Positions 4,691 through 39,104 of a DNA stretch of 44,634 nt are shown piece by piece; positions within the stretch are counted from its first letter, which is position 1, and every line of letters begins with the position of its first letter. This DNA comes from a candidate division WOR-3 bacterium (GTDB lineage: Bacteria > SDB-A), in assembly GCA_016926475.1 (NCBI GenBank), contig JAFGON010000014.1, positions 1 through 44,634 on the forward strand, given 5' to 3'. Made by a program: the position numbers and the translations under genes. The notes beneath the pieces were generated by a model. That model was not told the origin of the DNA and ran no database searches. It saw nothing but the letters and a program-made list of their open reading frames with translations.

Positions 4691-6325
4691 GTGATAATCG
4701 TGATAATGCTGTTGTTTTCTATACTGATGTTCTCTCTCGAAATACCGGAAAATGCCACCTTAACAGGTTTATCTGTTTTTGAGGGGACAAGAATCGACAC
4801 TTTCGAGTTGACTTACTTGACGACTGTGAATTCTGGCAGAATCTCAGGTAAAACAATCATCGCAAGATGCGAAGGTGAATTTATGAGAAAAACAGGAGTC
4901 CTGTACGGCATGAGCGGGAGCCCTGTTTATTACAACGGAGAACTGATAGGAGCGCTTTCATCAACTTGGTCGGACAGCAAGGAACCGATCGCCGGTATTA
5001 CTCCCATAGATGAAATGCTGGAAGACGTGAAATACGGCCTTTCTGGTTTTGTTGAGGCTGACGATGATATAAAAAAATACGAAGTATGCCTATCTGGTTC
5101 CGGACTCGCTTCGATAGCGGCAAATATTCTCGACAACCATCTGCCTGTTAATTTCCTTTTGACAGACGGTTCAAAACAATCTTTTGACACCACTGAATTC
5201 ACGCCCGGAAGCGTCTTGAGCGTTGTTCTCGCGGGTGGCGACGCGACCTTAGCAGCGACCGGAACTGTCACTTTCGTCAAGGGGGACACAGTTGTAGGGT
5301 TTGGGCATCCATTTTTGGGCGAAGGCGCATGCAGTTATCCTATGGCGGGAGGTTTTGTAAACACAGTTATGCCTCTCACTACTCTCGGTTTCAAGTTGAC
5401 GACTCCAACTGCTGTTGTCGGAACCATAACAAGTGATGTAAACACAGGAGTCTCCGGAATAATCGGAAAGATACCGGAAACTATACCTGTTAAAGTCGAT
5501 ATATCATCCGAGGGCGTTTTGAAGTCATTTGATTTTTGGGTCTGTAAAAGCGCTGTTTTCACTCCTGTCCTGATTCCGGTGCTTTCCCTGAGCGCCTTCC
5601 AGTCAAGCGCTCTTTTTACCGCTACAGGGTATTGTGAAATAAAGACGGATATCTTTCTGTCAAACCAGGAGGAGGTTTCATTTTTTAATTCTTACAACGG
5701 GATCGGATCCGTCGGAGAGGCTTGGGCAGGAGATATAATGCTCGCTTTGAACTCGGTTGTTTCAAACACATACGAAAGGACTTATCCAGATTCAATACAC
5801 GTAGAAATAACATCTTTTAGGGAACCGAGGGTATCTATAATCAAAGATCTGGTTTTAAGCAGATCGAGAATAAATGAGGGCGAGAACTTCACTGTGACTA
5901 TAATTCTCTCCCAAGAAGGCTCCGGAACTTCGGCTGTCAGCGTCGATGTGACGACTTCAGGAATTTCGGCGCCCGACACTCTCGGGATAATCGCTTGTGA
6001 CGCCTATAATCTTTCTCTTTTTCTCTTCATGGAGAATCCTCTTTGGTCAAATTACGGAAGCTACGAGGAATTGTTGAATGTTTTGAAAAAGATTCCCTCC
6101 AATAATCGCATCTACCTCGTGCTCTACGAGAGAGGAGCGAACCTTACTTCCGGCTCCCGCATACTCGGCAGGACTCCTTTATCGGTGATGAGCGTCATGA
6201 AGTACGGTGACATAAACACAGTTCCAAATTTCACCTCGCTAAGGGTGCTCAGGACACAGGAAATTGATTTGAACTCAGTCGTCAGCGGGGCAGTGGTAAA
6301 CAGAATTGTAGTGGAGGAAAGATGA
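4691..6325 (+). CDS. Secreted SpoIVB-like (S55 family) serine peptidase-domain protein
   Basis: A 544-residue exported protein starting at GTG 4691 (an ATG at 4706 is possible). Residues 1-16 are a hydrophobic signal sequence. G73-M-S75-G-S-P78 is the nucleophile motif of S55 peptidases (SpoIVB), and a G-F-G-H206-P-F motif follows GTVTF at about 193-197. SpoIVB has the GxGH element before GMSGSP; here the serine motif comes first, so the order appears swapped. The segment after GMSGSP (SKEPIAGITPIDEML) is typical of non-sporulating homologues. Residues 350-544 look like beta-sandwich domains with no sorting signal. It overlaps the propeller gene by 4 bases (ATGA), and the two are probably a functional pair in the periplasm or on the surface. 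Peptidase activity is inferred, not certain. Confidence 0.82.
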   Translation: MIIVIMLLFSILMFSLEIPENATLTGLSVFEGTRIDTFELTYLTTVNSGRISGKTIIARCEGEFMRKTGVLYGMSGSPVYYNGELIGALSSTWSDSKEPIAGITPIDEMLEDVKYGLSGFVEADDDIKKYEVCLSGSGLASIAANILDNHLPVNFLLTDGSKQSFDTTEFTPGSVLSVVLAGGDATLAATGTVTFVKGDTVVGFGHPFLGEGACSYPMAGGFVNTVMPLTTLGFKLTTPTAVVGTITSDVNTGVSGIIGKIPETIPVKVDISSEGVLKSFDFWVCKSAVFTPVLIPVLSLSAFQSSALFTATGYCEIKTDIFLSNQEEVSFFNSYNGIGSVGEAWAGDIMLALNSVVSNTYERTYPDSIHVEITSFREPRVSIIKDLVLSRSRINEGENFTVTIILSQEGSGTSAVSVDVTTSGISAPDTLGIIACDAYNLSLFLFMENPLWSNYGSYEELLNVLKKIPSNNRIYLVLYERGANLTSGSRILGRTPLSVMSVMKYGDINTVPNFTSLRVLRTQEIDLNSVVSGAVVNRIVVEER

Positions 6326-8370
6326 GAAAGATATTGTCTTCAGTGTTTATTTTCGTTGCCTTTTTAGATTTATCTGCCGGAAAGACAAACAATTTCGTCC
6401 TGGATTCTTATTCGGATTTTTACGCCGGCAAATTTGAAAATGTCATGTTGAGCTACACTGGAACTATTGAAGTCTCCAGAGAAATAATCAAGATTATGCA
6501 GTCTGACATAACCCACACTATGAAAATGGCGGAATGCGAAGGTAGGTATTATTTCGCTTCGGTTTCTCCGGCGGGAATTTACAGCTGCGATGTCGGGGAA
6601 GATGACATAGATACTGTCGCCGCTTTTGAAGACGGCGGAGTATTCGCGCTGGCGACTGACGGCAGGGATGTTTTCGCGGCGGTTTCTCCGAAAGGAGATT
6701 TGCTGAAGATCAGCCGAAGTGAAAGAGAAATAATATTTCACAGAGATTCACTTTCTGTCTGGGATATGATTTATATTGGCAACGGCAGAATTGCCTTGGG
6801 TACTTCTGATCAAGGAAAAGTTTATATTTTGTCTGTGGAAGGCGAATTTCTGGACAGCTTCGAAACGGGCGATGAATCGGTTGTCAGTCTTGCTTCAAGA
6901 GGAGATACTGTTTACGCCGGAACTTCCGGGAAAGGCCTTCTCGTCTCATATTCGATCTCAGGCAAAAAAGTTTATATAGCTGACGATCCGGAAGGTTCCG
7001 AGGTCAACAGCATTTTCGCCGGAAAAGATATCCTTGTATATTCCTCAATTTCCGGAGACATTGACCTTACGGGACTGTCTTCGTTGAGGTTCACGGTAGA
7101 TCCCTACTTTCACATACCCGCATCGTCGTCAGAGATAACTTCAAGAGTTTATAAATACCAAGAGGGTAAATCCGAATTGCTTTTCGTCTCTCCCAACCCG
7201 CCGGTCACGTCTCTTTTCATGACATCGGAAAGAGAAGTTTTAGCAATTGGATCTCCGGACGGATCTGTTTTTGTCTATAATCTCGAAAAAGAAGACTTGG
7301 AGGTTTTTAAAGCTCCCGAGGAAAAAATACTGACTTCTTGGGTTTTTTCTCCGGATGGCGCTGTGGATGTCCTCGCGGCTAACCCGCTGACCCTTTTTCG
7401 AATAAGTCCGAGAAAAGCTGAGGAAGCTTTATTTACAACAAATTGCATATTCGGCGGACAAAATCCGGTCTGGGGTGAGATTTATCTTTCGGGTGAAGGG
7501 AGTTGGAGGATACAAGCGAGGACTGGCAACACGTCCTCGCCGGGGGATCTATGGTCGAACTGGTCGAGAGAATTTTCGATTTTTTCTGAAGTAAAAAATG
7601 ATTTACCTCCGGGCAAAAACATACAGTTCAGGATTTCCTTTGACGGCAGTATAGAAAAAATTGAATTTTTGTTTTCGTCTGAGAACCAAAAGCCCGAAAT
7701 TGACAGAATCGAAGTTTTCGCTCCCGGTTCGGCTTTTTACGGAGTTTCACAAGTTTTACCGGATTTGAAGACGACATCTTTTTCCGATACTCAAAGAAGA
7801 ATGCTTTTGGTAGGAGGTTGGAGGATTCCGGAAAACCCTATCGCGATCCAAAACTCTCATCAGGGAATTTACATAGAAGCTTCGGATCCAGAAGACGACA
7901 GCCTGGTCTATGATTTTTTCTTGAAAGAGAAAACAAGAACAGAATGGATTAGAATAGGTTGGGTGATAAAAGCCAAAAGTTACGCGTTCAACAGACGATT
8001 TTTTTCCGACGGTGAATACCAGATAATGGCAATTGTATCCGACAGCATATCGAATCCTGCTGATAATTTTCTCTCGGACACCGCGTACTCGGAGGATTTT
8101 ACAATCGACAACACTCCTCCCACTGTGTCAGATTTTAGCGGTTCCAACACTGTCTCGTCTTTCACGGTAAGAGATTCAAGATCGAGGATTATTTCAGCTT
8201 CTTACAGTTTTGACGGGATAAACTGGACGAGTATGGAGCCGAAGGACGGGGTCTTTGACTCAAAATCCGAAAGTTTTGATGTTCAAAATATCACAGTTGG
8301 CAGTGAATTAATCATGATAAGGGCGGAAGATTCTCATCTAAACCAATCCTACTCATATTTCAGCCTGTGA
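6322..8370 (+). CDS. Secreted beta-propeller protein, function unknown
   Basis: A 682-residue exported protein. Residues 1-20 form a signal peptide ending LSAG. Residues 70-370 consist of repeated blades with a recurring pattern of the type VFAxxSPxGxLxxIS or VYAGTSGKGLL, as in quinoprotein or WD-like propellers. Residues 380-480 resemble a jelly-roll module and residues 500-682 resemble Ig or Reg_prop-type sandwiches, with phrases such as YSFDGINWTSME. There are no catalytic motifs. The start ATG overlaps the peptidase stop (ATGA) and its own end overlaps glycerate kinase by 4 bases. Propellers of this type usually act in protein-protein contact; here the natural partner is the S55-type protein encoded just upstream. 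Confidence 0.78.
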   Translation: MRKILSSVFIFVAFLDLSAGKTNNFVLDSYSDFYAGKFENVMLSYTGTIEVSREIIKIMQSDITHTMKMAECEGRYYFASVSPAGIYSCDVGEDDIDTVAAFEDGGVFALATDGRDVFAAVSPKGDLLKISRSEREIIFHRDSLSVWDMIYIGNGRIALGTSDQGKVYILSVEGEFLDSFETGDESVVSLASRGDTVYAGTSGKGLLVSYSISGKKVYIADDPEGSEVNSIFAGKDILVYSSISGDIDLTGLSSLRFTVDPYFHIPASSSEITSRVYKYQEGKSELLFVSPNPPVTSLFMTSEREVLAIGSPDGSVFVYNLEKEDLEVFKAPEEKILTSWVFSPDGAVDVLAANPLTLFRISPRKAEEALFTTNCIFGGQNPVWGEIYLSGEGSWRIQARTGNTSSPGDLWSNWSREFSIFSEVKNDLPPGKNIQFRISFDGSIEKIEFLFSSENQKPEIDRIEVFAPGSAFYGVSQVLPDLKTTSFSDTQRRMLLVGGWRIPENPIAIQNSHQGIYIEASDPEDDSLVYDFFLKEKTRTEWIRIGWVIKAKSYAFNRRFFSDGEYQIMAIVSDSISNPADNFLSDTAYSEDFTIDNTPPTVSDFSGSNTVSSFTVRDSRSRIISASYSFDGINWTSMEPKDGVFDSKSESFDVQNITVGSELIMIRAEDSHLNQSYSYFSL

Positions 8371-28639: not shown

Positions 28640-29732
28640 ATGACGAGGAAAGAAATAAAGGATAGGGTTAATTCGTTGGGATCAAAAACAGAAAACCTGC
28701 GGAGGTTTCTTTGATATACCACTTAGAAAAGAAGCTATAGCAGACACGCAGAAAAAGTTGCTCGAACCGGGAGTCTGGAACGACATAAAAAAAGCGAGGG
28801 AATTGTCTAAAAAACTAAATTCTGACGATGAGATCGTCAAAAGATTTGAAAAGATTTCAGATGATCTCTGTGCGGTTTCTGAACTCTCAGAATCTCTTGA
28901 AGATGAAGATCTTGAAGAGATATCAAACGAGATTGAAAAAATTGAAGAAGAGATAGGCGAGGTTGAAATGGAAAACGCTCTTAACGGGGAGGAGGACCGC
29001 CTCGGAGCGATAATGACCGTTCATCCCGGCGCGGGAGGCACTGAATCATGCGATTGGGCTGGAATGCTGTTGAAGATGTATATAAAGTATTTTGAAAAAC
29101 ATGACTGGAAATTTAAAGTAATCGACATTCAGGAAGCCGAAGAAGCGGGAATTAAAGACGCGACTCTGGAGATTGACCATGAGGGTGCGTATGGTTTTTT
29201 AAAGTGCGAAAGAGGTATCCACAGGCTGGTCAGAATATCTCCTTTTGACGCCAACCACCGAAGGCACACATCATTTGTCTCGGTTTTTGTCTATCCACTC
29301 GCCGACGACGAGATTGAGGTTGAAATATTGGAAAAAGACCTCAAACTCGATTTTTTCAGGAGTTCCGGGCCCGGAGGTCAGAATGTCAACAAAGTCAGCA
29401 CTGCGGTTAGAATAACTCACATACCGACAGGAATTGTCGTTCAATCACAGAGCGAAAGAAGCCAGATCTTGAACAGACAAAACGCCATGAAAATTTTAAA
29501 ATCGAAAATTTATCAAAAAATGCTTGAAGAGGAGCAGAAAAAAAAATCTGTTCTCGAAAACCAGAAAACTGATATAGCCTGGGGGCATCAGATTAGAAGT
29601 TACGTTTTTACTCCCTACACTCAGGTAAAAGACCACAGGACAGATTTTGAGACTTCGGATGTTCAAAAAGTAATGGACGGAAACATAGACGCTTTTATTA
29701 GGAATTACCTGCTCTATACGGGCAAAAAATAA
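28640..29732 (+). CDS. prfB: Peptide chain release factor 2, expressed by +1 programmed frameshift
   Basis: RF2 reads UGA and UAA stop codons and releases the peptide. The gene starts at ATG 28640 (AGGAG 6 bases upstream), reads 24 codons to an in-frame TGA at 28712-28714, and must shift +1 at CTT-TGA to continue at GAT 28713, giving 363 residues, close to the family's usual 365. After the shift come DIPLRKEAIADTQKKLLEPG in pattern and the full RF2 body. The stop-recognition tripeptide SPF is at 200-202 and GGQ, which triggers hydrolysis, at 245-247. A caller that ignores frameshifts would start it at 28758 and lose the N-terminus. lysS follows after 11 bases, the common prfB-lysS pairing. 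Confidence 0.97.
28700..28714 (+). promoter_or_regulatory. RF2 autoregulatory +1 frameshift site
   Basis: The string CGGAGGTTTCTTTGA at 28700-28714 has the two known elements: a Shine-Dalgarno-like GGAGG and, three bases on, the slippery CTT followed by TGA. The spacing equals that of the Escherichia coli prfB site. When RF2 is scarce, ribosomes pause at TGA and slip forward, making more RF2. The base after TGA is T here rather than C, which changes how efficiently the stop is read. Confidence 0.95.
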
Positions 29733-29743
29733 CGGAGGAAAAC

Positions 29744-31207
29744 TTGAGCAGCGAATATGACATAAGAGTCGAAAAGAGAGAAGAACTCATCAGGTCTGGT
29801 CATGATCCATACCCTTATAGTTTCAATAAAAACAGGGAAGTAAAAGAAGTTTTGGAAAATTTCGAAGACCTCGCTGAAGAAATCATTTCTCTTGCGGGAA
29901 GGATAGTTTCGATGAGGGGACACGGTAAAAGTGTCTTTTCGCATTTAAGCGATTCTTCCGGGTCGATGCAACTGTATTTTCAGCTCGATTCTCTAGGCGA
30001 AGAAAGTTTCGACCTGGTAAAAAAAATCGACATAGGAGATTTTGTAGGCGTGGAGGGAACATTGATGACGACAAAAACCGGCGAAAAAACTTTAAGGGTG
30101 AAGACCTGGCGTTTTTTGGCGAAAGCCCTTATGAATTTACCGGAAAAGTACCACGGCCTGAAAGATCCGGAGACAAGATACAGACAGAGGTACCTGGATT
30201 TCATATCAAACCCCGAGTCGAGACGGAAAATTGAAGCCAGAAGCAGAATTGTCAGGACTGTGAGGAGAAAGCTGGACTCGCTCGGTTTTTTGGAAGTCGA
30301 GACGCCTGTTCTTCAGCCTGTTTACGGAGGCGCTTTCGCGGAACCCTTTGTTACAAAGTACAATTCTTTAGGAGCGGATTTCTACCTAAGAGTCTCCAAC
30401 GAACTCTACCTGAAGAGGCTTCTCATCGGCGGCTTTGAAAAGGTATATGAATTCGCCAAAGATTTCAGAAACGAGGGAATGGACAAAGACCACAATCCAG
30501 AGTTCACGCAAGTAGAAGCCTACTGGGCTTACGTGGATTACCATGAAATGATGAAATTGACTGAAGACATATTCAGGGAAACGTGCGTTGAACTGCACGG
30601 AGAACCTTTTCTTAAAATCAGGGGCGAAGAGCTGGATTTTTCAAAGCCGTGGAAAAGGGTTGACTATTTCGGTTCCCTCGAAGACGCCGCAGGTATAAAA
30701 CTTAGGAATCTTCCAAAAGAAGACTTAATTCAAATCTGCACAGAAAAGGGGATAGATACCGACAGGAAAAATCATAGGGGAAAAATTATCGACGCGCTTT
30801 TTTCTGGACTCGTACAGCCATATCTGATACAGCCTTCCTTCGTGATGGACCATCCCTTGGAGATATCTCCTCTTGCTAAAACTCACAGGAAAGATCCTTC
30901 TCTTGTTGAGAGATTTGAACCCATCGTTCTCGGAATGGAACTCGGCAACAGTTTTTCCGAGTTAAACGACCCGATAGAGCAGAGAAAAAGACTTGAGTAC
31001 CAGAACGAGCTCAGGAAGTCCGGAGAAAAGGAATACGAACCGATCGACGAGGATTTTCTTCTAGCAATGTCATACGGAATGCCCCCCGCTGGAGGTTTGG
31101 GTCTGGGAATTGACAGGATGGCAATGCTCTTTACCGCTTCGGACAGCATAAGAGAAGTTATAACTTTTCCTCAATTGAAACCTCTGCAGACCGAGCAAGG
31201 AGAATAG
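29744..31207 (+). CDS. lysS: Lysyl-tRNA synthetase, class II
   Basis: A 487-residue homodimeric enzyme that charges tRNA-Lys. The start is TTG at 29744 with GGAGG at 29734-29738. Residues 50-140 are the OB-fold anticodon-binding domain (LAGRIVSMRGHGKSVFSHL). The catalytic core has motif 1 (FLEVETPVLQP), motif 2 (FRNEGMDKDHNPEFTQVEAYWAY in pattern, with FRNEG and HNPEFT) and motif 3 (GLGLGIDRMAMLF) close to the C-terminus. Length is typical. A Rho-like helix insertion (LPKEDLIQICTEKGIDTD, about residues 323-340) interrupts the catalytic domain, which some bacterial LysRS share. Co-transcribed with prfB. Confidence 0.96.
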   Translation: MSSEYDIRVEKREELIRSGHDPYPYSFNKNREVKEVLENFEDLAEEIISLAGRIVSMRGHGKSVFSHLSDSSGSMQLYFQLDSLGEESFDLVKKIDIGDFVGVEGTLMTTKTGEKTLRVKTWRFLAKALMNLPEKYHGLKDPETRYRQRYLDFISNPESRRKIEARSRIVRTVRRKLDSLGFLEVETPVLQPVYGGAFAEPFVTKYNSLGADFYLRVSNELYLKRLLIGGFEKVYEFAKDFRNEGMDKDHNPEFTQVEAYWAYVDYHEMMKLTEDIFRETCVELHGEPFLKIRGEELDFSKPWKRVDYFGSLEDAAGIKLRNLPKEDLIQICTEKGIDTDRKNHRGKIIDALFSGLVQPYLIQPSFVMDHPLEISPLAKTHRKDPSLVERFEPIVLGMELGNSFSELNDPIEQRKRLEYQNELRKSGEKEYEPIDEDFLLAMSYGMPPAGGLGLGIDRMAMLFTASDSIREVITFPQLKPLQTEQGE

Positions 31208-31209
31208 CA

Positions 31210-32448
31210 GTGTTCTACCATCTGATGCTTGCCAAAAGATACCTCAAACCGCCTAAGACAAACAGGTTTCAACTGTTCATAACCGTGTTGTCGATTGGCG
31301 GAGTTATGGTTGGGGTCGCCACTCTTATAGCTGTGGTGTCTGTAATGAATGGGCTTCACACAGACATAAAAAAGAAAATAGTCGGCGTGAACGCTCATAT
31401 TATCATCACCCGAGGCATAAGCGCTCCTGACAGCTGTCTGGAAGAAATTAAAAGGATAATTTATTCGGATGATGTTTTGAAAAATGAAGTGACAGGCGTA
31501 TCCCCTTTTGTCATTTCAAAGGTGATGGTGAGAAGAAAAAACATCATAGACGGAGTGCTTTTAAGAGGACACGACATGGAGACTGGGAGAGAAGTTACCG
31601 ATATAGAGGAGAAAATAATCGAAGGGAATTTTCTGCGAGATCCCTTAAACGAAGGGGTGATACCTATCGTCATCGGAAACATGCTGGCTGAAAACCTTGA
31701 AGTTAATACAGGGGATGTCATCGAGATCTTTTCTGTTCTTTCGAGCACGATTACCCCCATAGGCCCTGTCCCAAAGACATACAAAGGCGAAGTTGTAGGC
31801 ATAATAGACGCAGGTCTATACGAATACAACAGCTCTTGGATATTTATGAGGTTGCCAGACGCTCAAAAAATCATGAAACTCGAGAACAATGTCACCGGTT
31901 TTCAAATAGCCGTCAAGGATATGATGGAAGTGAGAAGATTGACGAGAAGACTTCAGGACAAACTGGGTTTTTCTTATTCCGTTCAAGATTGGCTCATTTT
32001 AAACAAAAACCTCTTCGCGGCTCTTAAACTGGAGAAAACGGCTATGACTCTCGTTCTTTTTATGATTATCGTCGTCGCCGCTTTCAACATTGTTTCAACG
32101 CTGATAATGATTGTAATTCAGAAAACAAGGGAGATTGGAATTTTAAGATCCATTGGGATGACGAGATTTGACGTCATGAAGATATTCGTGCTTCAGGGTA
32201 CTGTCATGGGATTCATAGGAACCGCGCTTGGAGTCGCGGTCGGGCTTGTCATATGTTTCGCTCTGGGCAGGTATGAATTCCCTATAGATACCGACGTATA
32301 TGTTATTTCATCGCTGCCAATCACGGTCAATCCTCTGGATGTGTTGGTAATCGCTCTATGCTCAATGGGGATATCTTTTCTTTCTGCGATATACCCGGCT
32401 TACAGAGCTTCGCGGCTGCTTCCCGTGGAGGCGTTGCGCTATGAATGA
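31210..32448 (+). CDS. ABC transporter permease, LolC/LolE-like
   Basis: A 412-residue inner-membrane protein of the lipoprotein-releasing type. The start is GTG at 31210, 2 bases after lysS. It has one helix at about 22-48 (FITVLSIGGVMVGVATLIAVV), a large periplasmic domain at 50-270 and three helices in the last 140 residues, with the FtsX-family landmark TREIGILRSIGMTRFDVMKIF. This architecture, together with the ATPase just downstream and the lpx/bam genes beyond, supports transfer of lipoproteins out of the inner membrane. Only one permease gene is present, so the complex is probably a homodimer, as in bacteria with a single LolF-type subunit. Confidence 0.88.
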   Translation: MFYHLMLAKRYLKPPKTNRFQLFITVLSIGGVMVGVATLIAVVSVMNGLHTDIKKKIVGVNAHIIITRGISAPDSCLEEIKRIIYSDDVLKNEVTGVSPFVISKVMVRRKNIIDGVLLRGHDMETGREVTDIEEKIIEGNFLRDPLNEGVIPIVIGNMLAENLEVNTGDVIEIFSVLSSTITPIGPVPKTYKGEVVGIIDAGLYEYNSSWIFMRLPDAQKIMKLENNVTGFQIAVKDMMEVRRLTRRLQDKLGFSYSVQDWLILNKNLFAALKLEKTAMTLVLFMIIVVAAFNIVSTLIMIVIQKTREIGILRSIGMTRFDVMKIFVLQGTVMGFIGTALGVAVGLVICFALGRYEFPIDTDVYVISSLPITVNPLDVLVIALCSMGISFLSAIYPAYRASRLLPVEALRYE

Positions 32449-33115
32449 AAACATCGTCAAAGCCGAAAAAATCGTAAAAGATTTCGAAAGCGGATCACAG
32501 ATAATTAAAGTTCTCAACGGGGTAGATTTTGTCCTAAGGAGTGGAGAAATAATTGCTGTCGAAGGTCCTTCAGGAAGCGGAAAAACTACATTTCTACACA
32601 TACTCGGAACTCTCGAAAGACCTTCTTCGGGAGAGTTGTTTCTCGCTGAAAAAAACGTAAAAGAATTCAGCGACAGAGCCCTGTCTGGCTTGAGAAACAG
32701 ATCAATAGGCTTTGTGTTTCAATTTCACAACCTCATTTCTGAATTGACCGCGATAGAAAACGCAATGATTCCGATGCTCGTCGCGGGAAAAAAGAAAAAT
32801 GAAGCCAGGCAAAAAGCCGAGGAAATGCTCGTGAAAGTAGGCCTTTCTCAAAGATTAAACCATCATCCTTCTCAACTTTCAGGCGGTGAGAAACAACGAG
32901 TCGCGATAGCGAGAGCCCTGGCAAACTCACCAAAGGTTGTTCTCGCGGATGAACCAACCGGAAACCTCGACGCGATAACCGCTTCCTCGGTTTTGAACAT
33001 ATTTCTCGAATTGGCGAAAAATGACAATTGCGGGGTTATCATAGTCACCCACAACCCCGGTGTTAGTTCCAAATGCGATAAAATCCTGCGTTTAAATCAA
33101 GGAATTCTGCAATAG
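32441..33115 (+). CDS. ABC transporter ATPase, LolD-like
   Basis: A 224-residue ATP-binding subunit, overlapping the permease gene by 8 bases. Walker A is GPSGSGKT at 42-49, the Q-loop lies in FVFQFHNLISELTAIENAMIP, the signature LSGGEKQR at 146-153, Walker B VVLADEPTGNLD near 166-177 and the switch histidine in IVTHNP. The length and the ELTAIENAMIPML stretch are characteristic of the LolD/MacB group. It should power lipoprotein extraction with the adjacent permease. Its stop is immediately followed by the mcsB ATG. Confidence 0.92.
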   Translation: MNENIVKAEKIVKDFESGSQIIKVLNGVDFVLRSGEIIAVEGPSGSGKTTFLHILGTLERPSSGELFLAEKNVKEFSDRALSGLRNRSIGFVFQFHNLISELTAIENAMIPMLVAGKKKNEARQKAEEMLVKVGLSQRLNHHPSQLSGGEKQRVAIARALANSPKVVLADEPTGNLDAITASSVLNIFLELAKNDNCGVIIVTHNPGVSSKCDKILRLNQGILQ

Positions 33116-34147
33116 ATGAAAATTTCTTCGGTTGGGGATTCGCGTAAATTTATAGAAAAATCAAGACTTAAAGCTCCTGTTTGGTTTAAAGCGGATTCCA
33201 GAAAAGTTGTTTTCAGCATTCGTGTGAGGCTTGCGAGAAACTTCAGCGAAAAAAAAATCAAATCTGAGGACAAAATCGAATTGACGGAGAAGGCTCTTTC
33301 CGGGAAAGGTCTTCAGAGGATCGATCTTTGGAAAATTGGCGCGCTTTATCGAAGAATACTTGCGGAAAGGCATCTAATAAACACTCCGGTCTACCAGAAT
33401 CTAAGCCTTTTCGTGAGTCAGGACGAAAGGGTTTCAGTTCTCGTGAATGATGAAGACGACATCAGAATTCAAGTGATCTCAACTCCCGGAGACGGAGTGT
33501 TTTGCCTTGAGAAGGCGAAGTCAACAGCAAGCGACATTGATGAATTTATTCCTTTTGCCAGGTCCCAAGAAGGGGTTTACGAGACCTCATGCCCATCGAA
33601 CAGGGGCACAGGAATGAGGTATTCCTATCTTTTACACCTGCCTTGCATTTTTTTAACCGGCAAAGACAGGCAAGTGTTCCGATCGGCGAAAGCATGCGGT
33701 CAAACACTTAGAGGAATTTTTGGAGAAGGGACAAAAACAGCCGGATCTTTTTGTCAGGTTTCAAATTCTTCGGCGATGAAAGATGAAAGACAGACAATGT
33801 CGGAAGTTGATTATTTTACCCAACGCCTTTCGGTTTACGAATTGTTTGCTAGAGAAAATCTGTTAATGTATAATGGTGAAGTCGTAAAGAACTATCTTAA
33901 AAGGGGTTTTGAAAGCCATAAAAACAGAAAAATCAAAACAATGAGCTTTTCTGAATACTCCCAGGTTGCCTCGGCACTAAAGCTCGCTCTTGATTTGGGC
34001 ATAGAAAGCGGGTTTTCTGAAGATGCAGTCTCAAGGGTTTTCTTTCTTTTGAGAAGGGGACACAGGGATGCTATAATAAACCAAATTGAGGGGGGGCAGG
34101 ATATTAGTCTTTCTGACTTTATAAAGATGACTGTGAGAAAAAAATGA
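33116..34147 (+). CDS. mcsB: Protein-arginine kinase McsB-like
   Basis: A 343-residue guanido-kinase homologue. McsB phosphorylates arginines on proteins, marking them for ClpCP. Recognisable blocks are IRVRLARN at 35-42, NDEDDIRIQ at 111-119 (the family has NEEDH), CPSN with C159 followed by GTGMRYSYLLHLPC, and the GEG loop with E204. Thus most catalytic elements persist, but the NEEDH loop has a Glu-to-Asp and a His-to-Asp change. The start abuts the LolD-like stop. Its end overlaps clpC by 4 bases (ATGA), so kinase and unfoldase are made together. The usual partners McsA and CtsR are not present here. Confidence 0.9.
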   Translation: MKISSVGDSRKFIEKSRLKAPVWFKADSRKVVFSIRVRLARNFSEKKIKSEDKIELTEKALSGKGLQRIDLWKIGALYRRILAERHLINTPVYQNLSLFVSQDERVSVLVNDEDDIRIQVISTPGDGVFCLEKAKSTASDIDEFIPFARSQEGVYETSCPSNRGTGMRYSYLLHLPCIFLTGKDRQVFRSAKACGQTLRGIFGEGTKTAGSFCQVSNSSAMKDERQTMSEVDYFTQRLSVYELFARENLLMYNGEVVKNYLKRGFESHKNRKIKTMSFSEYSQVASALKLALDLGIESGFSEDAVSRVFFLLRRGHRDAIINQIEGGQDISLSDFIKMTVRKK

Positions 34148-36699
34148 ACAGCGAAAATTTTACACTTAGATACAGGAAAATTGTAATGGCCGCACAGAGA
34201 AATTCAAAACTCCACAAAAGGGGATATTACACCACACTAGACATTCTTTACGGAATTCTCACGGAGACAAATTGTTTCGCTGTGAAAATACTTCAGAAAA
34301 TGGGCGTGGATATTTCTTTGATGAAAAAAATAATCGCCGCGAGGATATACAAAGACGATTTTTACAAGGAAACTCCAAGGTATCCTTCGAATCTAAAAGA
34401 ACCGGTTCCGACCATAGAAGTCGAGAGCGTCATCCAGGGATCAATAAAAAAAGCCGAGGATTTATCTCACATGTTCATCGGAACGGAGCACCTCATACTT
34501 TCCGTTCTCGACAATATAAACACTGCCGCCGGAGAGATATTGAAAAGTCTTGATATCACCTACGAGCAGTTCAACTTGAATCTGCAGAACCTTGTAGACG
34601 AAACCGATTTATCCGTGAGGGAAGAAGAGAGAAAAAAAATAGGGAGACCAAAGGAAAATTTCGACGACGAAGAGGACGACAAATTTGTCATAGAGGATTT
34701 TTGCAGAGATCTCACTTCCTTGGCGGAAGAAGGAAAGCTGGACCCGATTATAGGGAGGGACCTTGAAATAGAAAGGGTGGTTCAAATTCTGTCGAGGAGA
34801 AGGAAAAACAATCCGGTTTTGATAGGAGAAGCGGGTGTCGGCAAAACAGCTATAGTTGAAGGTCTCGCTCAGCGTGTCGTTCAAGGCCATGTTCCGCCTT
34901 CTCTAATCGGAAAAAAATTCTATCAGCTCAACCTTGCCTCGGTTGTGGCGGGTACAAAATACAGAGGACAATTCGAAAGCAGGATGAAGTCTATAATAGA
35001 GACCATAAAAAACAGAGAAGACATAGTACTTTTCATAGATGAACTGCATACCATAGTAGGGGCGGGTTCTGCCGAAGGATCGCTGGATGCCTCGCACATA
35101 CTTAAACCTTCTCTGGCCAGAGGAGAGATAAAATGCATAGGCGCTTCGACCGTCGCAGAATACCACAGGCATATTGAGAAGGATGGTTCTCTGAAGAGGA
35201 GGTTTCAGGCGATTTTGGTTGACTCTCCCGGAATACCGGAAGCTATAGACATACTAAAAGGACTCAAGGAAAAATACGAGGAACATCACGGGGTCGTCTA
35301 CGAAGAAAGCGCCTTGAAATCAGCGGTTATTTTGGCAGACAGATACATAACCGACAGGCATCTTCCGGATAAAGCCATCGACGTGATCGACGAAACCGGT
35401 GCGAGAGTGAAATTGTCCTCCATGCCTCCTTACCCTGATCTGGCAGAAGACGAGGTAAAACTTAAGAAGATCCTCGATTCAAAAATCAAATTTGTCTCTG
35501 AGCAGCAGTATGAAAAAGCCGCGGAATATCGGGACAAAGAATCGAAAATAAGAGCCGAGATTGACTTGAAGCAGAAAAATTGGCTTAAAATCTCAGATAA
35601 AGTCACTCCGGTGGTGACCGACGAGGACATCCGGGAAGTCATCAGCATGTGGACTAACATACCAATACAAAAGCTTCAGGAAAAGGAACAGGACAAACTC
35701 GTTAACCTCGAAAACCTGCTCTCGAAAAAAGTTATAAGTCAAAACGAAGCCATTAAAGCTGTCAGCAGGGCAATAAGAAGAGGCAGAATGGGTCTGAAAG
35801 ATCCAAAAAGACCTCTCGGCTCTTTTCTATTTCTTGGACCTACGGGCGTTGGTAAAACAGAACTCGCCAGGTCCCTCGCGGAAATTCTCTTCGGAAGCAA
35901 GAGAAACTTGGTCCGAATTGACATGAGCGAATACATCGAGAGGTATTCGGTCGCAAGGCTCATTGGTTCGCCTCCTGGATACGTCGGATACGGTGAACAA
36001 AATCCAGTCATAGAAGAAATAAGGGTAAAACCCTATTCCGTGGTGCTTTTCGACGAGATAGAAAAGGCTCACATAGATGTCTTGAACATAATGCTTCAGC
36101 TTCTTGAAGAGGGTGAAATAACGGACAGCCTCGGCAGAAAGATAAGTTTCAAACAATCCGTCGTGATAATGACTTCGAACATAGGCACGAAAGACATAAC
36201 GAGATCAAAACCTCTTGGTTTTGGTTCGACTCCTGAAAACGTGGATTATGTTAAAATGAAAGAAAACATTTTATCCGAACTCAAAAGGATAATCAATCCT
36301 GAGATAATAAATAGAATTGACGAGGTCGTCGTGTTCAGAAGGCTGACAAAAGAAGACATGAAAAAAATCATTGAACTCGTCTTTGAAGAAGTTAGGGATA
36401 GAATTAAAGAGAAAGAAATTGAAATCGACCTATCAGATGGAGCAAAAGAATTGCTTGTCGAAGAAGGCTATGATCCCGCCTTCGGCGCACGTCCTCTTCG
36501 AAGGGCTTTCAGGCGTTACATCGAAGACCCTCTCGTCGAAGAATTTTTGCAGGGGACGGTGAAGGTAAACGATAAAGTGACAGTGGAGAGATCTGGAAAA
36601 GAGCTGAGATTTGTGGTCAAAGGAACTGAGAATATGCTCAACATCCCTTTTGAAAGCAATGTGTCTCAAAAAATTCCGGGAGAAACTTCTGCCGACTGA
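34144..36699 (+). CDS. clpC: ATP-dependent Clp protease ATPase subunit ClpC
   Basis: An 851-residue Hsp100 unfoldase. The Clp N domain (two repeats) spans 1-150, with a charged linker to 180. AAA-1 has Walker A GEAGVGKT at 228-235 and FIDELHTIVGAG. The middle domain holds a UVR-like helix EQQYEKAAEYRDKE at about 451-465, the feature separating ClpC from ClpA. AAA-2 has GPTGVGKT at 565-572. An LGF loop in SKPLGFGS is the expected ClpP-docking site. The short tail after residue 830 is polar. Adaptors bind the N and middle domains; in Firmicutes phosphoarginine made by McsB binds the N domain. clpP is not in the window. Confidence 0.95.
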   Translation: MNSENFTLRYRKIVMAAQRNSKLHKRGYYTTLDILYGILTETNCFAVKILQKMGVDISLMKKIIAARIYKDDFYKETPRYPSNLKEPVPTIEVESVIQGSIKKAEDLSHMFIGTEHLILSVLDNINTAAGEILKSLDITYEQFNLNLQNLVDETDLSVREEERKKIGRPKENFDDEEDDKFVIEDFCRDLTSLAEEGKLDPIIGRDLEIERVVQILSRRRKNNPVLIGEAGVGKTAIVEGLAQRVVQGHVPPSLIGKKFYQLNLASVVAGTKYRGQFESRMKSIIETIKNREDIVLFIDELHTIVGAGSAEGSLDASHILKPSLARGEIKCIGASTVAEYHRHIEKDGSLKRRFQAILVDSPGIPEAIDILKGLKEKYEEHHGVVYEESALKSAVILADRYITDRHLPDKAIDVIDETGARVKLSSMPPYPDLAEDEVKLKKILDSKIKFVSEQQYEKAAEYRDKESKIRAEIDLKQKNWLKISDKVTPVVTDEDIREVISMWTNIPIQKLQEKEQDKLVNLENLLSKKVISQNEAIKAVSRAIRRGRMGLKDPKRPLGSFLFLGPTGVGKTELARSLAEILFGSKRNLVRIDMSEYIERYSVARLIGSPPGYVGYGEQNPVIEEIRVKPYSVVLFDEIEKAHIDVLNIMLQLLEEGEITDSLGRKISFKQSVVIMTSNIGTKDITRSKPLGFGSTPENVDYVKMKENILSELKRIINPEIINRIDEVVVFRRLTKEDMKKIIELVFEEVRDRIKEKEIEIDLSDGAKELLVEEGYDPAFGARPLRRAFRRYIEDPLVEEFLQGTVKVNDKVTVERSGKELRFVVKGTENMLNIPFESNVSQKIPGETSAD

Positions 36700-36740
36700 A
36701 CTGGTTGGCGAAAAAATTTAGCAGGGGCGTGATTAAACAG

Positions 36741-39104
36741 ATGAAAATGATAATACTTTTCCTGAGTTTTATTCCGTGCGTAATTCGGACGGAAGCTCTG
36801 AATAGAATCATTGTCGAGGGCAACGACAGAGCCAGCAATGACCAAGTTATTCAAATGGCTGGAATATCTCCTGGAGACGAATTTTCGCCTTTCGTTTCCG
36901 CTTCCGTCATCAAAAACCTTTTCTCCACCGATCTATTCAGAGATGTTTCCCTTGACACTTTTTACGATGCCATAGAAGGATTGACCCTGGTCATTGAAGT
37001 AGAAGAAAACCCGGTTCTCGACACTTTAATAATAAACGGAAGCGGTAGAATTTCAGAAGCAAATCTGAGGGAATGGCTTTCGAGAGGTTCCTCAGACACT
37101 GCAATTGTCCGCGGGTGGCCGGAAGCCCCTTTTAAAGGCAGAACAGTGACGGATAGAAAACTCTCAATTTGGAAGAAATTTATTCTCGATTCCTACGCTG
37201 GAGAAGGTTACATAGGGACAGCCGTGGATATTTCGGTCTCTTTACCGGACGATCAGAACAGGATTGAAGTGACGGTGGATATCAAAGAAGGCAGAAAAAT
37301 AACTATAGCCGCTATCAACCTCAACGGCTTGATTTCGTTGAATTCTAAAATCGTCAAATCAAGGCTGCAGAACAGAGAGTGGGGATTTTACGGCTGGAGG
37401 GGTTTTAAAGAATTTTATTGGTTTGGCCTCTTCAGGAAAGGCGGGTTCAATCAAAACGTATTTGAAGGTCATGACGTGGAATCAATAGAGAGAACTCTGA
37501 GAAGCAGAGGATTTCCTGACGCGGAAGTTGACAGCCTGAATTATATTTTCAATCAAGAATCCACATTGGTTGTGATAGAAGTCTTCATAGATGAAGGAGA
37601 TAAGAAATATTTCGGCGAGACAGTTTTCGAAGGCAACGTTTTTTTCGAAACAGGACATCTTGAAAAATACGTCTCCTATGATCCGGGACAACCCTACGAT
37701 ATTGAAAAAATTGAAAAGACCCAGAGACTTTTAAGCGAACTATACGCGGACAGCGGTTTTATCTACGTTCAGTTCAATCCCGTCCAGACAAGAAAAGACA
37801 GCACTGTCGACATTACTTGGCAGATGAGGGAAGGGCCGAGGGTGAAAATAAGACTTGTCGAGATAATGGGCAACTACAGGACGCGCGACAGGGTAATCCG
37901 AAGAGAGATAACTCAATTTCCCGGAGAATATTTCTCCATTTCAGGGCTCAGGTTGACCTCGCAAAAAATATTCAACCTCGGTTTTTTCGACAACATCATT
38001 CCTGATATTGCCCCTGTCGACAGCTCAAACGACAGCATAGCATACGCGGATCTCATCATAGAAGTCTTCGAGAAAAAAGCTGGAGAGATCAGAGGAGGAG
38101 CGACCTATTCGCACTACGGTGGAGTAGGAGCTTACGCGAAATTTGCCGTGCCGAACCTTTTGGGCAAAGGCGAGACTTTTGATCTGGAATTCGACATAAA
38201 TTCAAAAATGTGGAACTTTGACATAGGGTATTTTGAACCGTGGGTTTTAGGGACCGATTGGGCTGCAGGGGCAAGACTTTTCGCTACTACCTACGAAATG
38301 GATTATTACAAGTACAGAAAAGAAGGATTCCAAATAAACACCGCAAGAGCCCTCCCTTGGATAGATTTTACCAAAATCTATAATTCTTACACGTTAGAGA
38401 GGGTTGAAGTTGAAATATTCGACCCTGACAGCGCCAGCGATTACCTGAAATCTCAAGAAGGCTTGAAATATATAAGCAAACTGGGAATAACTTTTGTCAG
38501 GGACGCCAGAGACAAATACTTCAACACTTCCCGAGGGACTTATTTTTCTTTGGCGACAAACTTGACGGGTGGTTTCATGCAAGGAGACGTGAATTTCAGA
38601 GAACACGTTTTCGAGTATAAGTATTTTCTGCCGGTGACTACAAAAAAACCTTCTTCAAACATTCCTTCTTCTTCTCTGATGTTCAGAAACAAAACGGGTG
38701 TAATTTCCGATTTTTATTCAACCGGCAGCGGAGACGTACCCGTTTATGAACTTTACAGACTTGGAGGAATAGGAGAGTGGGGACTTAGAGGATACGATGA
38801 ATACAGCATAGGTCCGGTGCAGGAAGGCGATGTCATTGGAGGCGCGACGGCGATACTACTCAACGCGCAGTATTCAGTACACCTCGGCGAAATGGCGAAT
38901 TTTTCGATTTTCGCGGACGCCGGCAACGTATGGGAAACTCCATACTCCCTTGAAGGATCGAGTGGTTTTAACGACCTGTACAAAAGCGCGGGGTTGGGTT
39001 TCAGAATTAATCTTCCCATGTTGGGCATTATGGGGATTGACTACGCCTACGGATTTTCGACCGGCGACTGGAAACCTCATGTCCAGTTCGGAACAAACTT
39101 TTAG
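36741..39104 (+). CDS. bamA: Outer-membrane assembly factor BamA (Omp85)
   Basis: A 787-residue Omp85 protein that inserts beta-barrels into the outer membrane. The frame is open from a TTG at 36705, but the ATG at 36741 gives a clean signal peptide (MKMIILFLSFIPCVIRTEA) and is preferred. Five POTRA-like repeats follow, at about 20-410, with motifs such as VEGNDRASNDQVIQMAGI and FFDNIIPDIAP. The 16-strand barrel domain fills the rest. The lid-loop motif L-R683-G-Y is intact. It ends with an aromatic residue (VQFGTNF), the standard barrel signature. It stands directly upstream of the skp-like gene and lpxD, as in Proteobacteria, despite the different lineage. Confidence 0.95.
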   Translation: MKMIILFLSFIPCVIRTEALNRIIVEGNDRASNDQVIQMAGISPGDEFSPFVSASVIKNLFSTDLFRDVSLDTFYDAIEGLTLVIEVEENPVLDTLIINGSGRISEANLREWLSRGSSDTAIVRGWPEAPFKGRTVTDRKLSIWKKFILDSYAGEGYIGTAVDISVSLPDDQNRIEVTVDIKEGRKITIAAINLNGLISLNSKIVKSRLQNREWGFYGWRGFKEFYWFGLFRKGGFNQNVFEGHDVESIERTLRSRGFPDAEVDSLNYIFNQESTLVVIEVFIDEGDKKYFGETVFEGNVFFETGHLEKYVSYDPGQPYDIEKIEKTQRLLSELYADSGFIYVQFNPVQTRKDSTVDITWQMREGPRVKIRLVEIMGNYRTRDRVIRREITQFPGEYFSISGLRLTSQKIFNLGFFDNIIPDIAPVDSSNDSIAYADLIIEVFEKKAGEIRGGATYSHYGGVGAYAKFAVPNLLGKGETFDLEFDINSKMWNFDIGYFEPWVLGTDWAAGARLFATTYEMDYYKYRKEGFQINTARALPWIDFTKIYNSYTLERVEVEIFDPDSASDYLKSQEGLKYISKLGITFVRDARDKYFNTSRGTYFSLATNLTGGFMQGDVNFREHVFEYKYFLPVTTKKPSSNIPSSSLMFRNKTGVISDFYSTGSGDVPVYELYRLGGIGEWGLRGYDEYSIGPVQEGDVIGGATAILLNAQYSVHLGEMANFSIFADAGNVWETPYSLEGSSGFNDLYKSAGLGFRINLPMLGIMGIDYAYGFSTGDWKPHVQFGTNF

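Follow-up and report, generated by a model that had tools for sequence, protein, structure and literature searches.

What is a protein-arginine kinase doing beside the unfoldase ClpC among the envelope genes of a bacterium that bears lipopolysaccharide (LPS)? To our knowledge, nearly all work on protein-arginine phosphorylation has been done in Gram-positive bacteria. The window that raises the question is a 44,634-nucleotide stretch from a candidate division WOR-3 bacterium (GenBank assembly GCA_016926475.1, contig JAFGON010000014.1, our C14), the genome of which is 2.1 Mb with an estimated completeness of 100%. Our answer is that the pair is real and conserved, a known pathway in reduced form, set in a gene neighborhood that is common among Gram-negative bacteria. 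The novelty is the reduced form, in which McsA, the McsB tail, and ClpC E32 have been lost, and not McsB–ClpC in an LPS-bearing host.

An earlier reading, made from the sequence alone, had placed mcsB and clpC, overlapping by 4 bases, between lolD and bamA. Open reading frames, the ATGA overlap, and domain searches all bear this out (Table 1). The lolD frame ends at 33115, directly abutting mcsB, and bamA begins 5 bases past the end of clpC; by domain search, neither neighbor was mis-called. Our family comparisons take in four genomes of the phylum, three in the window's genus and one in a sister genus (G003, L049). The order lolCE-lolD-mcsB-clpC-bamA is preserved in all three congeners, and the sister genus has the same order with a short McsA gene inserted. 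Across all four genomes, mcsB and clpC are adjacent, both frames full-length and open. No CIRCE heat-shock operator lies within the window. A candidate promoter in the 3' end of mcsB could drive clpC on its own; promoter-like matches over the whole region show no excess over shuffles, so the match is weak.

Table 1 Features of the mcsB–clpC locus (window coordinates)
Feature	Position	Strand	Basis
prfB, lysS, lolCE, lolD: conserved upstream neighbors	28758..33115	+	Domain searches, gene order
mcsB, protein-arginine kinase, 343 aa	33116..34147	+	NCBIfam McsB, PDB McsB, AlphaFold fold match
R36 and R38, nucleotide-binding arginines, kept	33221..33229	+	Alignment of 124 McsBs
NDEDD loop, residues 111-115 (relatives NEEDH); catalytic Glu113 kept, His replaced by Asp115	33446..33460	+	Alignment
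Cys159, equivalent of Bacillus subtilis McsB C167	33590..33592	+	Alignment
R199 and E204 within RGIFGEG; E204 equivalent of McsB E212	33710..33727	+	Alignment
Sigma-70-like promoter match, TTGAGA-17-TATAAT with TG in front, in mcsB 3' end upstream of clpC	34049..34077	+	11/12 consensus bases
ATGA stop/start overlap of mcsB and clpC, 4 bases	34144..34147	+	Sequence
clpC, Hsp100 unfoldase, 851 aa	34144..36699	+	PDB ClpC, Pfam domains, motif positions
ClpC N-terminal (receptor) domain	34144..34596	+	AlphaFold pLDDT 87; best matches ClpC N-domains, including phosphoarginine-bound 5HBN
Leu32 replacing pocket Glu32; pArg2 site lost	34237..34239	+	Alignment of McsB-linked ClpCs
Glu115, aligned with pocket Glu106; pArg1 site retained together with T7 and R9	34486..34488	+	Alignment
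bamA, conserved downstream neighbor; then ompH-like gene, lpxD, lpxC, fabZ, lpxA	36705..39104	+	TIGR03303 above cut-off, gene order

The identities of McsB and ClpC are secure from domain and structure searches. McsB matches the NCBIfam protein-arginine kinase at E 9e-45, yet sits under the curated equivalog cut-off (153 of 500 bits), a threshold we regard as strict because only 2 of 386 genomes pass it. Its ATP:guanido phosphotransferase domain scores above the Pfam cut-off (PF00217), and solved McsB structures in the PDB are matched at 1e-32. The AlphaFold model finds its best matches in McsB (6FH1, 6TV6, and 6FH3; TM about 0.8), and the full-length fold match to 6FH1 and 6TV6 points to a McsB-type C-terminal dimerization domain, where model confidence is about 70-75. 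ClpC matches the solved B. subtilis protein at 1e-232 and carries a Clp N-domain, two AAA modules, a UVR/M-domain, and an intact LGF ClpP-binding loop.

How unusual is the setting? Of 386 genomes drawn from across the domain, 141 matched a McsB family model; the survey used whole-genome searches, since a contig scan with the McsB alignment gave only five loci. We examined the surroundings of about 120 McsB loci and counted the 117 outside the window's family. The gene for McsA is adjacent in 101 and 87 have clpC no more than 1.5 kb away, with lolD upstream in 57, bamA downstream in 42, and lolD, mcsA, mcsB, clpC, and bamA all together in 24; contig ends make these counts lower bounds. At these loci mcsA-mcsB-clpC often sits in a prfB-lysS-lolCE-lolD-...-bamA-lpxD neighborhood, which suggests that McsB–ClpC is common in outer-membrane-bearing lineages, often near lol, bam, and lpx genes. 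The literature we searched yielded no report of the lolD–mcsB association. The earlier reading had set the LPS-bearing host against the better-known Firmicutes; given the survey and the published Chlamydia system, such a host is no surprise. Nor is recent horizontal transfer from Firmicutes supported, because prfB-lysS-lolCE-lolD-(mcsA)-mcsB-clpC-bamA recurs in many of the sampled genomes. The window is a widespread arrangement minus mcsA, with no evident Firmicutes import.

The absence of mcsA and ctsR, first seen locally, holds genome-wide. UVR motifs in the window genome are confined to the ClpC locus and two frames of 590-706 aa consistent with UvrB and UvrC; a UVR motif search combined with a UVR-less McsA query found no McsA-like UVR or zinc-finger protein there. 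That query came from the sister genus, where McsA is an 89-residue stub (6079-6348) that keeps the zinc-finger cysteines, has no UVR part, and matches NCBIfam McsA at 1e-8. Across the window's genus (three genomes) it has no credible match, and neither search finds a hidden or relocated McsA in the window genome. CtsR is absent, genome-wide, from all four family genomes. McsA thus forms a series: full length in outgroups, a stub in the sister genus, absent in the window's genus. One other sampled lolD-mcsB-clpC-bamA locus (L089), with a ClpC that keeps E32, also has no mcsA at the same place, so the gene has probably been lost more than once. At L132 the place of mcsA is occupied by an Rrf2-like regulator gene, upstream of a McsB with an intact RDxxRA tail, and at L193:7010-8605 McsA and McsB are fused in a single 531-aa protein between lolD and clpC.

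Could the kinase work on its own? We scored eight catalytic positions on an alignment of 124 McsBs: two N-terminal arginines, the loop Glu and Arg, the Cys, the GTxxR Arg, the RG Arg, and the GEG Glu. All eight are intact in all four family McsBs (R36, R38, E113, R117, C159, R168, R199, and E204 in the window). Such retention carries information, since in 22 of the 124 half or more of these residues are gone. The sequence-only reading had seen NEEDH become NDEDD and proposed that activity or activation may differ. The substitution is there, but the case for a change in activity is the weaker part: the loop arginine is untouched, as is the catalytic glutamate, which is the second E of NEED. Among the 92 McsBs with a complete catalytic set, 89 retain the loop His, and Asp is confined to the window's genus (three genomes); the sister genus has NQEDH. 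By arginine kinase numbering, we take this His to be the equivalent of H227. In the Daphnia arginine kinase H227 is structural, and H227A cuts Vmax by 18% (PMC8839106). With so mild an effect of the matching mutation, the Asp is probably tolerated, and we reject an inactivated kinase as the simple reading of NDEDD. McsB is the faster-diverging partner (50-58% identity within the genus vs 85-91% for ClpC; 37-58% among the four family McsBs), which could mean relaxed constraint.

The degenerate McsBs deserve a word of their own. Seventeen of the 22 still lie beside mcsA and 10 beside clpC; those still adjoining mcsA, many of them also clpC, include L085, L087, L088, L091-L094, L098, L100-L104, L106, and L188. 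They may form a class of pseudokinase adaptors. Two genomes of about 1.05 Mb (G383 and G256; loci L095 and L097) have mcsAB flanked by tRNA-Glu, tRNA-Lys, and tRNA-Thr, the layout described for Chlamydia, and their McsBs retain none of the eight catalytic residues. If the layout makes these genomes chlamydia-like, as we suppose, it suggests that the chlamydial-type McsB is a pseudokinase.

Where activation is concerned, the proposal of a difference was sound: McsA, the phosphoarginine (pArg) receptor tail of McsB, and one ClpC pocket are gone. In B. subtilis McsB, the receptor tail comprises R337, D338, and R341 (PMC8370763). By alignment the window McsB lacks this RDxxRA motif and has not kept R190 and R194, the latter being Gln in the window genome and Lys in the other three family members. 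The tail is not a strict requirement of the McsB family, since 23 of 88 other complete McsBs are also without it. Staphylococcus aureus McsB is activated by McsA through the loop Y147-Y153 (PMC12467219); the aligned stretch in the window reads RSQEGVY. With the McsA-contact loop so altered, McsB activity without McsA is an assumption.

Comparison of the ClpC pockets and the kinase active site with known proteins, which the earlier reading had proposed, gave a mixed outcome: kinase residues intact, one pocket lost, one kept. In S. aureus ClpC, T7 and E106 are part of the pArg1 pocket, and E32 is part of pArg2 (PMC12583610). Among 88 McsB-linked ClpCs, E32 is retained in all 84 outside the family and replaced by Leu in each of the four within it. 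The same four genomes keep T7, R9, and E106. By the S. aureus assignment, then, one whole pocket would be lost and the core of the other kept. E106 is weak support for pArg binding because it is nearly universal, being Glu in every ClpC alignable there (86 of 88). Around the pockets R5, R83, and K85 are changed to N, E, and E, positions that also vary elsewhere; we dropped R83 and K85 as unique marks, since both changes occur in some other ClpCs, and R122 as a pocket marker, since even the Omnitrophota ClpC has Gln there. In the ClpC tree a long stem leads to the family, which has no close relative there, and we made no use of its joining L091, given the risk of a long-branch artefact.

A degradation pathway needs more than a writer and a reader. 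ClpP is found in all four family genomes. So too is a TsaC/Sua5 domain fused to a low-molecular-weight phosphatase (LMWPTP; L019, L020, L021, and L022), with the P-loop C[EKT]GNTCRS, for example CEGNTCRS, placing Thr at the fifth X (CxxxTCR). In YwlE/PtpB this Thr directs the enzyme to pArg, while Ile favors pTyr (PMC8001253). The fusion is therefore predicted to be a YwlE-type arginine phosphatase, the eraser of the system. By DNA pattern, 51 of 386 genomes carry the Thr motif, 45 of them with McsB (Fisher p 3e-16, inflated by kinship among the genomes), as against 5 of the 31 genomes with the Ile motif; the Thr vs Ile contrast is strong nonetheless.

We lean toward regarding the pair as a reduced but working pArg degradation pathway, a McsA-independent kinase feeding a one-pocket ClpC–ClpP. 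McsB, we infer, would phosphorylate arginines of its substrates without the activator McsA and free of the pArg-driven oligomer control seen in the B. subtilis enzyme. ClpC would catch the marked clients by its single remaining N-domain pocket (T7, R9, E115), unfold them, and pass them to ClpP; the TsaC-fused phosphatase, encoded elsewhere, would remove the mark. In favor of a working pathway are the intact catalytic residues in four genomes, given the decay of McsB elsewhere, the adjacency of the pair, retention of T7, R9, and E106, ClpP with the LGF loop, the Thr-type fusion, the association of its motif with McsB, and the mildness of H227A. Against it count the altered McsA loop, the fast divergence of McsB, the near-universality of E106, and the changes at R5, R83, and K85.

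Suppose instead that McsB is chiefly an adaptor or activator of ClpC, acting by direct contact. Then pArg would no longer be the degradation signal, and the N-domain would have been retuned to McsB or to unfolded clients, explaining the pocket loss. The degenerate McsBs that stay beside mcsA and clpC speak for this, as does the loss of E32 and the surrounding charge pattern from the family's ClpC; S. aureus ClpC mutants E32A and E106A are, moreover, partly de-repressed (PMC12583610). Dispensable catalysis should decay, however, and here all eight residues persist in four genomes divergent in McsB, as does the Thr-type phosphatase. We judge the adaptor role unlikely, though it carries some weight. 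A relict in decay, with McsA truncated then lost, McsB drifting, one ClpC pocket gone, and ClpC kept for McsB-independent work, would suit the stepwise McsA loss, the fast McsB divergence, and the missing tail; in every genome, nonetheless, the frames are open and full-length, clpC adjoins, and the active site is intact, and we find decay decidedly unlikely. It is very improbable that McsB acts on free arginine, as a phosphagen kinase, instead of on proteins: arginine and creatine kinases do share its catalytic domain, and bacterial phosphagen kinases exist, but sequence and fold are far closer to McsB, the C-terminal helical domain is of McsB type, and the gene is coupled to clpC.

The window lineage is a natural experiment, in which the core of the kinase and a single ClpC pocket were kept while much presumed regulation was dropped. 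For that reason it offers a way to ask whether pArg-directed degradation requires McsA and the second pocket. The further claim, of a minimal McsA-independent pathway with a one-pocket reader, embedded in and perhaps dedicated to a lol-bam-lpx envelope operon, and with TsaC, the tRNA t6A enzyme, as the fusion partner of its eraser, we consider doubtful.

How does all this sit with known systems? With the McsA–McsB–ClpC–ClpP system of Bacillus and Staphylococcus and its phosphatase YwlE/PtpB, the window shares the McsB fold and active site, a ClpC with M-domain, ClpP, a Thr-type LMW phosphatase, and a kinase gene next to clpC. It differs in having no McsA, CtsR, McsB RDxxRA tail, R190/R194, or ClpC E32, in its TsaC-fused phosphatase, and in the placing of its genes in an envelope-biogenesis cluster. 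Chlamydia, for which McsAB and ClpC have been published, its ClpC degrading pArg-casein with ClpP (PMC10128030), is likewise an LPS-bearing host with McsB and ClpC; unlike the window, it has retained mcsA, with mcsAB lying apart from clpC, and the two sampled chlamydia-like genomes have a catalytically degenerate McsB. In the verrucomicrobium Methylacidiphilum, an mcsB–clpA/C pair, Minf_0242 and Minf_0241, is upregulated on formic acid (PMC8024496); the locus tags are adjacent, as are the two genes in the window. An Omnitrophota metagenome-assembled genome (L050) matches the window in neighborhood and gene direction, reading lysS-lolCE-lolD-ilvE-mcsA-mcsB-clpC; unlike the window, it retains a full McsA, NEEDH, the RDxxRA tail, and both ClpC pocket glutamates.
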